64,000 bases of DNA from a virus. The translations under genes and the position numbers were made by a program. The stretch spans positions 1 to 64,000 of the IMG/VR virus record IMGVR_UViG_3300042731_009849. One strand, written 5' to 3'. The notes under the pieces were generated by a model. The model worked only from the letters and a program-made list of their open reading frames with translations. It had not been told where the DNA came from and made no database searches. This document shows, in pieces, positions 55,605-61,978 of this stretch (positions are counted from its first letter, which is position 1; each line of letters opens with the position of its first letter).

Positions 55605-56831
55605 TTGCGAAAAGCTAAAGATAAAAACAAAAAACTGACAAAATGGGAAAAGGAATTTTTGACGTGCAAGAGCTGCGGCAGCACTTATTCAACAGAAGGA
55701 GGCCTTCAGAGGCACAAAACACGTGCACATCATTGGTCTGCTAAACCAGATAAAGCGATGCAGGAAAGGGTAGAGGCAGCCCGTAAGGAAGCTTTTAAGC
55801 AGCTCATTGCCCCAGATCTGCCATCTACTGTTGAAGTGGAGTCCAGTGCTGCTTCAGTGCAGCCGGAGTCTCCCAATACTGAGAAAGTTCTGAAAAAGAT
55901 GGTGGATAAGGCGATGAAGGATAGACATCGTAATATCTATTTGAAGACTCAGGAGCTGGAGACCGTTGCGAGGCTTGCGGAGAAAATACCAGTTTTATCT
56001 GAAGAAGACAAGTCAGAACTAAGGAAAGAGCTGTACATTTCTGATTTGGTTGAGAAAGAAAAGAAAGAGACTTTTATAGATCCTGTTGTTTGTGGCATTA
56101 AAGCCGTTCACCCAGGTACTGTTCTCAGGCTGCTGGGGAGGGTGTTGGTGAAGTCTCCCGATAACTCATTTACTTATACAGATATTGATTCCCCTACTGT
56201 CGGACTGGTTTCCAGGAGATGGGCAGACGCTCAGGATGTTATTTACCTGGACGTGTCTACAGACGACGGGGTTTTTGTTGTCAGTGAGTTGCTGGTGATA
56301 CCTGTTTTTGGGGAGTCACAGATAAAGATTCTTCAGTATGGTGAGCATAAGGATCTGTATACTAAAAAATCAATTGGGACCGATGCAGAGTCTCTTAAGT
56401 TCTATAATGCATTGAATCATTATTATGAGGCTCAGGATCGATATGAGTCAGCAAAGAAACATTGGGATTGGGTGAAATATCAGACAGGTTATATTATAAA
56501 AGATTACCTGGAAGAGTACGGGCTGCCTCTGGCAGAAGGTGGTAAAGATCGCCTGATTAAAGACTCAGGCTTTGAAGCCTATTATTCATATGAAGAAGGT
56601 CGTACCAAGCCTATGGTTAGAACTGACGCATTAATTGCAACTTTAAAAAATAAAGGCTTGCGTCATTTGATGAAGACAGAGTATGTTGTTGATGAGCAGC
56701 TCTGGAGAGATTTGAAGAAGCGGGGAGTCTTTACAGAGGACGAAATTGAAATGCTTGAATATAAAAAGACACTAAAGCCTGTTCGTGATCTTACTGTGAA
56801 ACGGATAGATGCTGTGAAGGAGGGTGAATGA
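55605..56831 (+). CDS. C2H2 zinc-finger protein leading the replication operon (408 aa)
   Basis: Residues 21-43 form a C2H2 finger: Cys21, Cys24, then His37 and His42 after a 12-residue loop. A basic N-terminus precedes it, and charged helices follow (about 45-165). Residues 165-400 contain beta strands and helices without recognised motif. The start is a TTG with AAGGAGGT at a good distance. It overlaps the exonuclease gene by four bases. Likely DNA- or RNA-binding; the large C-terminal part is unexplained. Confidence 0.65.
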   Translation: MRKAKDKNKKLTKWEKEFLTCKSCGSTYSTEGGLQRHKTRAHHWSAKPDKAMQERVEAARKEAFKQLIAPDLPSTVEVESSAASVQPESPNTEKVLKKMVDKAMKDRHRNIYLKTQELETVARLAEKIPVLSEEDKSELRKELYISDLVEKEKKETFIDPVVCGIKAVHPGTVLRLLGRVLVKSPDNSFTYTDIDSPTVGLVSRRWADAQDVIYLDVSTDDGVFVVSELLVIPVFGESQIKILQYGEHKDLYTKKSIGTDAESLKFYNALNHYYEAQDRYESAKKHWDWVKYQTGYIIKDYLEEYGLPLAEGGKDRLIKDSGFEAYYSYEEGRTKPMVRTDALIATLKNKGLRHLMKTEYVVDEQLWRDLKKRGVFTEDEIEMLEYKKTLKPVRDLTVKRIDAVKEGE

Positions 56832-58309
56832 AGCGAATAGTGTTGGTTGATGGCAACCCTTTAATGTGGAGAGCTGCATATTCCAAAGGGGTTTCTACGG
56901 TTACTGAGAACATCCTGAAGTATTTTTTCAATATAGTAGGTACTTTTTCTGACTTTGAGTTTATCGTATTTTGGGATGAGGGTAAATCTCGTTGGAGATC
57001 TGATCATTATACGCAGTACAAGGAGCACAGGGAGGAGACCAAGAAAAACTTTGATATGGCAGAGCTTAAGAGGCAGAAAAACGATGCCAGGAAGTATCTG
57101 GAGTACTTTGGTTTACGCAATCTCTGCGTAAATGGTGTGGAGGCGGATGACGTAATAGCAGTACTTTCAGAGTACTTTTCCAAATGTTTGAATTATGATC
57201 AGGTTATTATCGCATCAAAGGATCACGATCTGTGGCAGCTGGTAACAGGATCGGTATCTCTTTACGATCCAATGGGGAGATCTTATACAGATCTGAATGG
57301 GGTCCATGAATACTTTTCAGCAGGACCTGAGGAGATTGGAAGCATCAAAGCCCTTGTGGGAGATCCGTCAGACAACATTAAAGGCGTCAAAGGGATCGGG
57401 GAGAAAACAGCAGGTAAACTTCTTCAGGATTTTGGTGGTCTGGAGGGTCTTATGTCAGCAGAGAATGCCAAGGAACTGAAGAAGAGAAAGACAACTGAAA
57501 AGATTCTCAACCTGTCGGAGGATATGGAGCTCTCCTATCAATTGGTAAAATTACCAAATCTGTATAATTTCTCTTATTACCTCAACGATGAAGAATTGGA
57601 TTCCTTGAAAGATCAATGTACCAGGGTTCTATCGAAGGATTTAATCAGAGCTCGTACAGAAGCGGACCTTCTTGGAATCTCAATGGGCAATTGTCCCCGA
57701 GATGGTTTTAGTGGTCTTGATGCAGAACTGCAGGAGTTCTCCAAAACCTGGTTGAATCCTTTTAGGGTTTACATAGATCTCCTTTTGAAGGACCTTGACA
57801 GATGTATTGCTTCCTGCCAACGGTGCATGACAGGTGTTAAACCTGTTCTTCCTGAAGGTCGTGTAGGCGCTGATTTTATGGTTGTAACACGCTCATCTTC
57901 CTCAGACAGGTCTATGGTGCAGAAAGTTCTTGACGGGCTTGAGATAGCTCCTGAGAGGGTTTGGTGGACGTATGTCAGTAAATGCCCTGGAAAGCTACCT
58001 TTGACTTACGGAAGAATGAAGTGCTGTTCAGATTTTTTGATGACGGAAATCCACAGCATTAAACCTAAGATGATTTTTGCTCTGGGGTTGGAAGCTATGT
58101 CAGTGCTCACTCCTTTGAAAGGAAGGCCTTCAAAGCACTCCGGTGAGATCCTTGACAGGCCTGAAGGAATCTTTGGAAAGGTTGACAGTATTGTTTCAGT
58201 GCTTATAGATCCTGATCTGGCATTGAGGAGTGATCAGCGAAGGGTTGATTGGATGTTTGGTGTGCAGAAGGTTATGGAATTTTTTAGAAAGAAAAGGGAG
58301 CAGCAATGA
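56828..58309 (+). CDS. 5'-3' exonuclease fused to a UDG-like iron-sulfur domain (493 aa)
   Basis: Residues 1-285 are a FEN/PolA-type 5' nuclease: Asp8, Glu-Ala-Asp-Asp at 105-108, Ser-Lys-Asp-His-Asp at 130-134, and Gly-Asp-Pro-Ser-Asp-Asn with the helix-hairpin-helix GVKGIGEKTA at 186-195. Residues 315-485 resemble uracil-DNA glycosylase families 4/5: Cys330, Cys333, Cys386 and Cys399 as iron-sulfur ligands, and a helix with Pro-Lys-Met-Ile-Phe-Ala-Leu-Gly. The usual Gly-Glu-x-Pro-Gly and His-Pro catalytic motifs are not visible. It removes primers or processes DNA ends, while the second domain may only sense DNA. It overlaps both neighbours by four bases. Confidence 0.75.
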   Translation: MKRIVLVDGNPLMWRAAYSKGVSTVTENILKYFFNIVGTFSDFEFIVFWDEGKSRWRSDHYTQYKEHREETKKNFDMAELKRQKNDARKYLEYFGLRNLCVNGVEADDVIAVLSEYFSKCLNYDQVIIASKDHDLWQLVTGSVSLYDPMGRSYTDLNGVHEYFSAGPEEIGSIKALVGDPSDNIKGVKGIGEKTAGKLLQDFGGLEGLMSAENAKELKKRKTTEKILNLSEDMELSYQLVKLPNLYNFSYYLNDEELDSLKDQCTRVLSKDLIRARTEADLLGISMGNCPRDGFSGLDAELQEFSKTWLNPFRVYIDLLLKDLDRCIASCQRCMTGVKPVLPEGRVGADFMVVTRSSSSDRSMVQKVLDGLEIAPERVWWTYVSKCPGKLPLTYGRMKCCSDFLMTEIHSIKPKMIFALGLEAMSVLTPLKGRPSKHSGEILDRPEGIFGKVDSIVSVLIDPDLALRSDQRRVDWMFGVQKVMEFFRKKREQQ

Positions 58310-59756: not shown

Positions 59757-60179
59757 ATGACTAAAATTATCGTACAAATAGGAAGCGAAAGGTCGAGAAA
59801 ACGGACTCAGATTGTGGAAGCTTTTGTAAATGATGAACCGGTTTCCTGGGACTCCGGTGAAGGGAAATTCATAACATCTTTTGCAGAAGCTCAGCAGAGA
59901 GGTCTTCGTTGGTATATGTCAAAGTTTGATTTGGAAGACGGGGATCAGATTAAACTAGTTGTTAAAACGTTCATTACTGATGCGGGGAAAGATGAAGACT
60001 TGACGTTTGAGAATGTATATTATGTCAACTCTTCAGTGGATGTAGAGGAGATCTCTAACCCGAAAGTGGGTAAACGGGGTTATCCTCTTCTTAAAGGTAG
60101 GTTGCAGGAGGTGTATTCCTTCAGTGCAGCAGATGAGCGCGAACAGGAAATTGAAGATTTTTTAAATGAGGGGTTCTAG
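59757..60179 (+). CDS. Unknown protein between thyX and the SNF2 helicase (140 aa)
   Basis: A mixed alpha/beta protein with a basic N-terminal strand and an acidic C-terminal tail; no Cys pair or known motif. Ribosome site is weak (GGTAGTTTGCA), and its stop overlaps the helicase GTG. Probably co-expressed with the helicase. Function unknown. Confidence 0.6.
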   Translation: MTKIIVQIGSERSRKRTQIVEAFVNDEPVSWDSGEGKFITSFAEAQQRGLRWYMSKFDLEDGDQIKLVVKTFITDAGKDEDLTFENVYYVNSSVDVEEISNPKVGKRGYPLLKGRLQEVYSFSAADEREQEIEDFLNEGF

Positions 60180-61978
60180 TGCTGCAAACCAGAACTGACG
60201 GGAAATTTTTTCTTGTAAAAATTGATCCTGCTGATCCTAATTACAGGACCTGTTACATGATTATACGATCACTGTTATCGACGTATGAGAATGTAACAGG
60301 TGAGTGGGTAGTGGATTATGCGGATTTTAAAGTACTGAAACGAAAACTTGATGAAGCTGGTCTGGTTGAAGGTCGTACAGCTTCCTCTGAGGCATTTGCA
60401 TTGCTGAAGCATTATTCCAAGATGGAAGCTTTCAACCAGAGATTAAAGCATGGAGAGTACAACGGTAAGGTTCTGGAACTGCTTGACGGTAAGCTAAAAA
60501 CCGTACCTTATGAGGATCAGCTATCAGGTATTGCTTTCCTGTACAAAAATCCTAGAAGCATGCTTATGGATTCAATGGGTATTGGTAAGACTCTACAAGC
60601 CCTGGCAGTATCTGCTATAGTATCCTCAGAGTCATCCAGGACGCTTGTAGTAGCCCCTCTGCCGGTACTTCTGGGTTTTGAGAAGGAAGTACTAGAGCAT
60701 ACCTATTTGAAACCTTACGTAGTACCTTCAGGGCGCAAGGCAGCTGCTAAAGCTCTCAAGAAGAACTTAAAAGGTGACTGGAATGTGCTGCTTGTTCATC
60801 CTGAAAATATCATAGGGTATAAAAAAGAACTTGAGAGTGAACTTACCGGTATTATTTGCAGGATTCCTTTTGAGACAGTACTGATAGACGAGTTCCATTG
60901 GTATAAAAATACTGATGCAAAGAGATCGAAAGTTCTGTCAAGCATGCTCAGGCGCATAAAGACTTTGGAAGGTAAACCTCCCAGGGTGCATCCTATGACA
61001 GGTACTCTTGTGTCTGAGAATCCATTGAATGCATACTTTGCTCTTCAGATTATGGGTAACGGTAACCTTCCGACACAGGTAAAGTACGAGAAGTATTTTA
61101 ATATTATTAAGGAAATACAGGTACCTCGTATGGATCCTAAGACAGGCAAGACCTACAAGATCAGTATACCTAAAGTGGTTGGCTACAAAAATCTTGATAT
61201 TCTCAGAGAGAGGTTGGAGTCCTGCTCTATCCGGAGAACCAAAGCAGATCTGAAAGGTTTCCCTGACAAGACAATGCAGACAAGAACTGTAATACTCTCA
61301 GGAAGGCAGAAAACCTTGTACAAGGATCTGTCTGATGGCGTTAAAAGCTCCTTGACAGATCGGGAAGATCTGGATACGTTTTTTTCTGTCAATAATGCAG
61401 GGATCAGGTTGATACAGCTGCTTAACCATCCAAGGTTAATCGGTGAAGCTACGAAGTCCGCCAAATATGAAGCCTTGTCTGAGATCCTGGAGGAGGTCCT
61501 TTCAGATCCTGATCAGAAGATAATACTGTGGACAGAATACAGAGCTGCGGTAGATCTGATTCATGAGCTGTGGAATGATCAGTATGGTGTAATGAAGCTG
61601 TACGGTGGAGTTGACATCGATGAGGATCTTGAGAAAAAGTTTGTATACGGTAATGAGATTAGGATTGCGGCAGCACTTCCTAAGAAAGCAGGTACAGGTG
61701 TGGATTTTCTGGCAAGAGCTCGTACAAGCGTTTTTATAGACTATATCAGGTCTTCAACAGAGAAGAACCAGTCTATTGACAGGATTCACAGAAGAGTGAA
61801 AACAGAGGGAGAGTTGACCTGGTTGGACAAGATGCGAGCACAACCTTGTACCATTATTCAGCTGCAGGCTAAAGGTACTGTGGATGAGTACATTGCTGAG
61901 AGAATGAGGGAGAAGGATTCGATGTCTGAAACAGTAACGCCTTCAATATCCAAAAAATCAATTTCTAAATTTCTGTAG
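60179..61978 (+). CDS. SNF2-type helicase/ATPase (599 aa)
   Basis: A superfamily 2 translocase. Walker A is MGIGKT at 133-138, motif II is Asp-Glu-Phe-His at 237-240, motif III is Thr-Gly-Thr-Leu near 275-280, and motif VI is Gln-Ser-Ile-Asp-Arg-Ile-His-Arg-Arg near 545-555. The N-terminal 110 residues are a separate domain of the kind that precedes SNF2 cores in small HARP/SMARCAL1-like proteins. The start is a GTG overlapping the previous stop. It may remodel replication or recombination intermediates. Confidence 0.85.
   Translation: MLQTRTDGKFFLVKIDPADPNYRTCYMIIRSLLSTYENVTGEWVVDYADFKVLKRKLDEAGLVEGRTASSEAFALLKHYSKMEAFNQRLKHGEYNGKVLELLDGKLKTVPYEDQLSGIAFLYKNPRSMLMDSMGIGKTLQALAVSAIVSSESSRTLVVAPLPVLLGFEKEVLEHTYLKPYVVPSGRKAAAKALKKNLKGDWNVLLVHPENIIGYKKELESELTGIICRIPFETVLIDEFHWYKNTDAKRSKVLSSMLRRIKTLEGKPPRVHPMTGTLVSENPLNAYFALQIMGNGNLPTQVKYEKYFNIIKEIQVPRMDPKTGKTYKISIPKVVGYKNLDILRERLESCSIRRTKADLKGFPDKTMQTRTVILSGRQKTLYKDLSDGVKSSLTDREDLDTFFSVNNAGIRLIQLLNHPRLIGEATKSAKYEALSEILEEVLSDPDQKIILWTEYRAAVDLIHELWNDQYGVMKLYGGVDIDEDLEKKFVYGNEIRIAAALPKKAGTGVDFLARARTSVFIDYIRSSTEKNQSIDRIHRRVKTEGELTWLDKMRAQPCTIIQLQAKGTVDEYIAERMREKDSMSETVTPSISKKSISKFL

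Follow-up and report, generated by a model that had tools for sequence, protein, structure and literature searches.

Domains resembling uracil-DNA glycosylase (UDG) have already been annotated on the DNA polymerases of phages. A PolA with an N-terminal UDG, gp205 of Pseudomonas phage PaBG, is in print (accessible part of PMC7412058), and SPO1 gp31 was matched in this study. In crAss-like phages, a UDG gene is named among the nucleotide enzymes (excerpt of PMC7886860). In poxviruses, a UDG fold, D4 (with A20), is found in the viral replisome, where its role is independent of catalysis (sections of PMC1936997 and PMC10253040). Here, we analyzed a stretch of 64,000 nucleotides of viral DNA, positions 1 to 64,000 of the IMG/VR record IMGVR_UViG_3300042731_009849 (the window), and found the same UDG-fold module joined to a replication enzyme of another kind. 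The open reading frame (ORF) at 56828..58309 on the + strand encodes a protein of 493 residues (the window protein), confirmed as a 5′ nuclease of the flap endonuclease (FEN) type, resembling those of SPO1 and T5, followed by a family-4 UDG fold with four cluster-type cysteines. In SPO1 gp31 and PaBG gp205, the module is located at the N terminus of PolA, whereas in the window protein it is at the C terminus of a FEN and the PolA is separate. The FEN of SPO1, on the other hand, is a separate protein, unlike the fusion of the window phage.

An original prediction, made from the sequence alone, had called the first half a FEN-type nuclease, and this was well supported. The window protein matched the Pfam domains 5_3_exonuc_N (PF02739; residues 4-150, 56837..57277, +; E 9.1e-25) and 5_3_exonuc (PF01367; residues 167-255, 57326..57592, +; E 3.6e-21), and PHROG 107, annotated as exonuclease, matched the same half (E 1.7e-35). 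Asp8, Asp50, Glu105-Ala-Asp107-Asp108, Asp132, and Asp134 in the N-terminal domain and Asp179 and Asp182 in the C-terminal domain were invariant in alignments of six phage FENs, including those of SPO1 and a Demerecviridae (T5 family) phage, and nine FEN-UDG proteins; we take these carboxylates to be the catalytic ones. In the structure model, residues 2-300 resembled the T5 5′-exonuclease (1exn; Z 23.6, root-mean-square deviation [rmsd] 2.6, 264 residues aligned). The FENs of Exiguobacterium phage EalM-132 and SPO1 (gp32.85), which were among the best annotated phage matches, were 29-37% identical to the window protein over approximately the first 250 residues, and a Trp-x2-Pro-Phe motif near their ends aligned with window residues 306-312. 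Because these two FENs end shortly past this motif, the UDG part comes after an apparently complete FEN. The nuclease domains and carboxylates are thus common to the window protein and standalone FENs of the SPO1 gp32.85 and T5 D15 kind, to near the SPO1-type C-terminal end, whereas the five standalone phage FENs compared were 289-314 residues long and had no UDG part in the alignment. The FEN-UDG gene gave the only 5_3_exonuc_N match in the phage record.

The UDG half (residues 329-493; 57812..58306, +) was recognized only marginally by Pfam, in which the UDG family scored 21.4 bits with the whole protein, 23.7 with the C-terminal piece, and 24.3 over the frame in a six-frame search of the record, the cut-off being 24.3. 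By Pfam alone, the profile check proposed in the original prediction was thus marginal; the fold was supported by modeling. An AlphaFold model of the UDG domain, built with eight sequences (predicted local distance difference test [pLDDT] 86.3, predicted template modeling score [pTM] 0.84), was most similar to family-4 UDGs (Sulfolobus 4zby, Z 19.1, rmsd 2.8, 166 residues aligned; Thermus 1ui0, Z 18.3), and it was also similar to UdgX (6l6s, Z 17.6). In the full-length model (pLDDT 85.9, pTM 0.87), residues 329-489 matched 4zbx (Z 17.7, rmsd 2.2, 155 aligned), and the single low-confidence stretch (residues 315-336, pLDDT <50) overlapped the FEN end and linker (residues 295-328; 57710..57811, +). 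Accordingly, the UDG-family assignment was borne out by the predicted fold, while the limits first proposed for the domain, residues 315-485, shifted to about 329 to 493. With the single sequence, a tautomerase had been the best PDB match of the UDG half (E 0.018), above the family-4 UDGs (approximately 0.1); this match was too weak and was superseded by the profile and structure comparisons.

The four cysteines of the UDG half, i.e., the Cys330-x2-Cys333 pair (57815..57826, +), Cys386 (57983..57985, +), and Cys400 (58025..58027, +), aligned with those of family-4 UDGs and with those of the UDG-like domains on phage polymerases, and they probably bind an iron-sulfur cluster, judging from the alignment. 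All four positions were Cys in 12/12 cellular family-4 rows, which represent 12 of 80 loci from a cellular UDG search, and in 11, 10, 11, and 11 of the 11 FEN-UDG rows, respectively, with all four present together in 10. K385 and R467 were retained in the window protein alongside them; the UdgX lysine equivalent to K385 is required for folding (accessible part of PMC10776899). Neither of the two outcomes named beforehand as refuting the original prediction, a missing UDG fold or cysteines that vary among the relatives, was obtained.

The fold and the four cysteines are thus common to the window protein and family-4 UDGs, but the catalytic motifs of the latter are not. Motif 1, GE[AG]PG in family 4, was replaced by TRSSS (residues 354-358; 57887..57901, +), and the loop following it, which carries the base-stacking Phe, was deleted. 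The Asn of motif 3 was replaced by Tyr382 (57971..57973, +) and the His-Pro of motif 2 by Asp461-Pro462 (58208..58213, +). The Glu of motif 1, the Asn of motif 3, and the His of motif 2 were each found in 12/12 cellular rows. The original prediction had noted both the four positioned cysteines and the lack of the usual catalytic motifs, and both observations held. In UdgX, the F65A, N91A, and H178A mutants had no activity and E52A was slower by one to two orders (same excerpt of PMC10776899); the window equivalents of F65, N91, and H178 are the deletion, Tyr382, and Asp461, respectively. F65A is the weakest of these three mutants as evidence since it was also unfolded. These losses indicate that the subclade containing the window protein gave up the pocket but kept the cysteines. 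Judging from the sequence, it is unlikely that the window protein excises or reads uracil; in the relatives that kept the pocket, uracil recognition is possible. The extra motif 3 loop of UdgX, with its cross-linking His, was also absent: UdgX rows carry an insert relative to a profile of six fusion relatives, and the window protein lacked this insert in the alignment.

To describe the spread of the fusion, we refer to the IMG/VR contigs or loci compared by locus labels (L033, L036, L148, L152, etc.). A profile search of IMG/VR gave 528 confirmed loci, and among the best 80 of them, nine matched the window protein over nearly its full length (best segment 33-40% identical), while the other 71 matched at most to residue 314. 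A search with a UDG profile gave 26 loci, comprising 14 FEN-UDG, eight PolIII alpha with a C-terminal UDG, two PolA with an N-terminal UDG (L153 and L160), one PolA with a C-terminal UDG (L152), and one standalone UDG (L148). Among the PolIII alpha loci, L156, a 3′ fragment, has no polymerase domains, and L158 looks nearly the same as L157 by eye. In total, FEN-UDG was found in 16 IMG/VR contigs encoding 12 distinct proteins, so the same fusion does occur in relatives, where the original prediction had suggested looking for it. One of these contigs (163,407 bases) carries the window phage in a longer copy, and the 16,291 bases that were compared were 100% identical. The nine relatives found first had exactly one UDG match per record (E 8.6e-13 to 1.2e-32), and the PolA frame was 735-761 residues long in eight of them, the ninth contig being 4.9 kb.

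The fusion was described at first as unfamiliar, and our searches agree that it is unusual. With three fusion queries, 0 of 1,077, 0 of 1,138, and 0 of 1,699 matching phage records covered 80% of the query, and no FEN-UDG fusion was found by tblastn among 50,697 phage records; one phage match (H46), antisense to an annotated gene, was taken as chance. None of 153 pattern matches in cellular genome contigs was confirmed, and none of 1,301 matching plasmid records reached 80% query cover. In a BFVD search with the full model, none of the 50 models listed covered both halves well. Two Tenacibaculum FENs aligned over approximately 500 columns but with an rmsd of >20 and were rejected, and the FEN of Tenacibaculum phage pT24 had no UDG match in 200 kb of the 234.7-kb genome. 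Neither a FEN-UDG nor a PolIII alpha-UDG fusion appeared in the titles or abstract openings of the papers listed by our searches of the open-licence PMC literature, half of which listed at most one paper, subscription journals being mostly outside this search, and the accessible part of PMC10303552 contains nothing on either.

PolA may carry a related UDG domain at either of its ends and PolIII alpha at its C terminus, while others are joined to a FEN or stand alone, in agreement with the earlier statement that UDG-like domains are fused to some phage DNA polymerases. In named phages, the partners are PolA (SPO1 gp31 and others) or dnaE (Pseudomonas phage nickie and relatives), or the domain is standalone, such as CDS0110 of Moorella phage MTATph1 (PF03167, E 1.8e-39). 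For PolIII alpha with a C-terminal UDG, both parts were matched by Pfam in L154, L155, L157, L159, L161, L162, and L073, and nickie dnaE (L267:2085-5477) has a C-terminal UDG according to its annotation and tblastn. In 13 of the other 71 FEN loci, a UDG-bearing ORF was found upstream of the separate FEN, and 10 of these 13 were recognized as PolIII alpha. The motif 2 His was lost in 5 of 12 PolIII alpha rows (nickie, L048, L064, L078, and L093). All four cysteines were present in 8/9 rows of PolA with an N-terminal UDG (PolA-N), with a variable motif 1. SPO1 gp31 has kept His-Pro while all four cluster cysteines are gone, and a Lysinibacillus relative of this polymerase (L265) keeps all four. 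Two further observations were made on these carriers. The UDG profile matched residues 14-156 of PDB 9qhs chain A, a 1142-residue "putative DNA-directed DNA polymerase I" (E 3.5e-10), and the PolIII alpha-UDG gene at L161:1446-5522 contains an intein-like insertion (Intein_splicing, E 1.6e-9).

A tree of 49 UDG domains, in which identical proteins were entered once and L038 was omitted as a near copy of L036, placed the 11 FEN-UDG rows and L148 in one clade of 12 rows (support 99/99). Its sister was the PolA C-terminal fusion L152 (98/91). Within the clade, the window protein paired with L033 (98/87) and then with L151 (98/86). L148 is nested inside the FEN clade, which makes a loss of its FEN half probable. 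The 12 PolIII alpha rows, i.e., six of the eight from the UDG-profile search (not L156 or L158), five of the 13 UDG-bearing ORFs upstream of a FEN, and nickie, formed two groups (95/88 and 99/96), and six of the nine PolA-N rows grouped together with weaker support (89/79). The deeper order was weakly supported, and five rows had long branches.

On the basis of sequence, models, and analogy, we favor, with about an even chance of its being correct, the reading that the UDG module of the window protein is a non-catalytic DNA-binding or partner-docking arm of the FEN, acting as part of the replisome. Such an arm would be the most likely role because the uracil pocket is lost while the cluster cysteines are kept, and, without a pocket, gripping DNA or a partner would be the simplest function left. 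The module is tied to replication by its relatives on PolA and PolIII alpha and by the 13 of 71 FEN loci with a UDG-bearing ORF upstream. The nuclease half would trim primers and flaps at nicks, and the separate PolA, with its 3′-5′ exonuclease and polymerase, would fill in, the FEN-UDG supplying the 5′ nuclease in trans. The UDG-fold module would keep the nuclease in place at a fork or nick, in a logic like that of the poxvirus D4 processivity subunit. This parallel is an analogy only, with no kinship claimed: D4 belongs to another UDG family, is a separate subunit rather than a fused domain, and is not known to have iron-sulfur cysteines. In the available sections of PMC1936997 and PMC10253040, the D4 interaction in the processive polymerase is independent of its catalytic residues, and the latter notes that the data disagree on the importance of D4 repair activity to the virus.

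Several points weigh against this reading. A 5_3_exonuc_N match was found in only one of the eight polymerase-UDG records searched, which are fragments of 32-80 kb, and this weakens the link between UDG and FEN as a general rule. The standalone UDG in L148 shows that the UDG can do without a FEN. In mean identity to its relatives, the window protein was lower in the UDG half (33.0%) than in the FEN half (43.4%), whereas among the seven relatives other than L033 (21 pairs) the UDG half was the higher of the two (59.7% versus 50.1%); such faster divergence in the branch of the window protein is compatible with a new role or with a relaxation of constraint. The DNA grip, the replisome docking, and the absence of activity proposed for the UDG half are inferred, as is the cluster, the latter from the cysteines only.

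Relaxed constraint would be expected if the UDG half were a decaying passenger, i.e., a functionless remnant of an active module, an explanation that we consider unlikely. The pocket loss common to the window protein and L033, and partly to L151, would fit it, as would the faster divergence of the UDG half. However, the frame, which starts with ATG, is intact and open, and the fold is predicted with confidence. The four cluster cysteines, K385, and R467 have also been kept despite an old split between the window protein and L033, whose UDG halves are only 35% identical.

A base-excision machine, in which uracil or a modified base is cut out by the UDG half and the site is passed to the FEN for long-patch repair with PolA, draws its support from the relatives rather than from the window protein, and we find it quite improbable for the latter. 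In eight of the 11 FEN-UDG rows, the motif 1 loop with its uracil-stacking Phe (absent in the window protein, L033, and L151) was retained together with the Asn of motif 3 and the His of motif 2. Taken singly, the Asn was retained in 10, with Tyr in the window protein; the His in nine, with Asp in the window protein and L033; and the motif 2 Arg in 11/11. Motif 1 of the clade reads GRNPG, and MUG/SMUG1-type enzymes also have an Asn at this place. In addition, one pair with pockets kept, L036 and L038 (92.5% DNA identity), had nonsynonymous and synonymous divergences (dN/dS) of 0.027/0.58 in the UDG half and 0.020/0.38 in the FEN half, and this low ratio points to purifying selection on the UDG half. 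Nevertheless, the motif 1 Glu was absent even in the well-kept relatives (Arg in nine, Lys or Asn in two), and in the window protein itself motif 1 has been lost, the loop with the stacking Phe is deleted, and Tyr382 and Asp461 stand in for the Asn of motif 3 and the His of motif 2. UdgX mutated at the counterparts of the Phe, the Asn, or the His was inactive (with F65A unfolded as noted above).

Equally doubtful is a role as a reader, without catalysis, of uracil or some modified base in the phage DNA, which comes close to the recognition of uracil-containing or modified phage DNA that had been proposed in the original prediction from the ThyX gene nearby. In its favor, UDG-polymerase fusions are found in phages annotated with hydroxymethyl-pyrimidine genes, such as SPO1, whose gp29 is noted as a dUMP hydroxymethylase, and Yersinia phage P744 and ctfzr933 with a "pyrimidine hmase synthase." The base-contacting residues, however, are among those lost in the window protein. 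The window phage carries dUTPase and ThyX with no ThyA-type match (the record may be incomplete), a combination that fits ordinary thymine DNA, and the ThyA family (PF00303) was matched in 0/13 records of the FEN-UDG family, which may also be incomplete, giving no support for a link to hypermodified thymine. ThyX is indeed next door in the window, but the linkage is not consistent: ThyX was found in 7/13 related records, near the fusion in three (two copies of the window phage and the record of L151) and more than 20 kb off in four. Recognition of such bases by the window copy was thus not upheld. Finally, a chimeric assembly or frame artefact has practically no chance of being correct, given the second contig that agrees with 100% identity over 16,291 bases and the diverged relatives that share the full-length architecture.

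The fusion gene overlaps each adjoining ORF by 4 bases. We compared its neighborhood in 12 loci from 11 contigs, several of which are incomplete at their ends. The upstream gene (55605..56831, +) has a weak C2H2-like finger match (zf-C2H2_4, E 0.018, below the cut-off), and in 6/12 loci its homologues preceded the fusion or the standalone UDG. Downstream, a 140-residue gene (59757..60179, +) was conserved in 11/12 loci, an SNF2-type helicase gene (60179..61978, +; SNF2-rel_dom, E 7.8e-19) in 12/12, and a 346-residue gene in 7/12. In L148, the same neighbors flank the UDG without the FEN; the 170-kb record of L148 gave no FEN match, and PolA was present there. Several adjoining ORFs of a repeated unit with "NQTPEIC" were observed upstream of this standalone UDG (L148:1549-3917).

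The replication genes of the window phage include PolA with a 3′-5′ exonuclease, a clamp-loader-like subunit, a DnaG-type zinc domain, and RecA, as well as a DnaB-like helicase match just below the cut-off. The PolA gene is located beyond the window (record 70722-72914), and its product matched exonuclease and polymerase domains only, with no 5′ nuclease and no UDG. The single UDG match of the record is that in the FEN gene, and for 11 PolA proteins of the lineage, searched with filters off, the best UDG match was not significant (E 0.79). After the GRRRHLP block, all 11 PolA proteins aligned have an insert with four cysteines (C...C-x2-C-x5-C), which splits the Pfam polymerase match and whose spacing appears to resemble the iron-sulfur spacing of Cas4/AddB. 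An anaerobic ribonucleotide reductase gene at record 98637-100556 (Pfam NRDD, E 1.6e-82) suggests that the host is anaerobic.

More broadly, the various fusions raise the tentative possibility that the iron-sulfur UDG fold is a portable module of phage replisomes, placed on PolA, PolIII alpha, or a FEN, and that in some lineages it may serve independently of catalysis as a tether or processivity arm. We found no test of a replication role for the polymerase UDG-like domains in the open-licence literature. If true, a portable UDG module would be, on the prokaryotic side, a parallel to the UDG that poxviruses use as a processivity factor. The module as found on the FEN, on PolIII alpha, and on both ends of PolA also provides a natural series in which the pocket is kept or dismantled while the cluster cysteines mostly persist, so that repair and replication roles may be separable. 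With pocketless members (the window protein and L033) and members with most of the pocket (L040 or L037), all proteins of approximately 500 residues, the FEN-UDG family would make this question directly testable.

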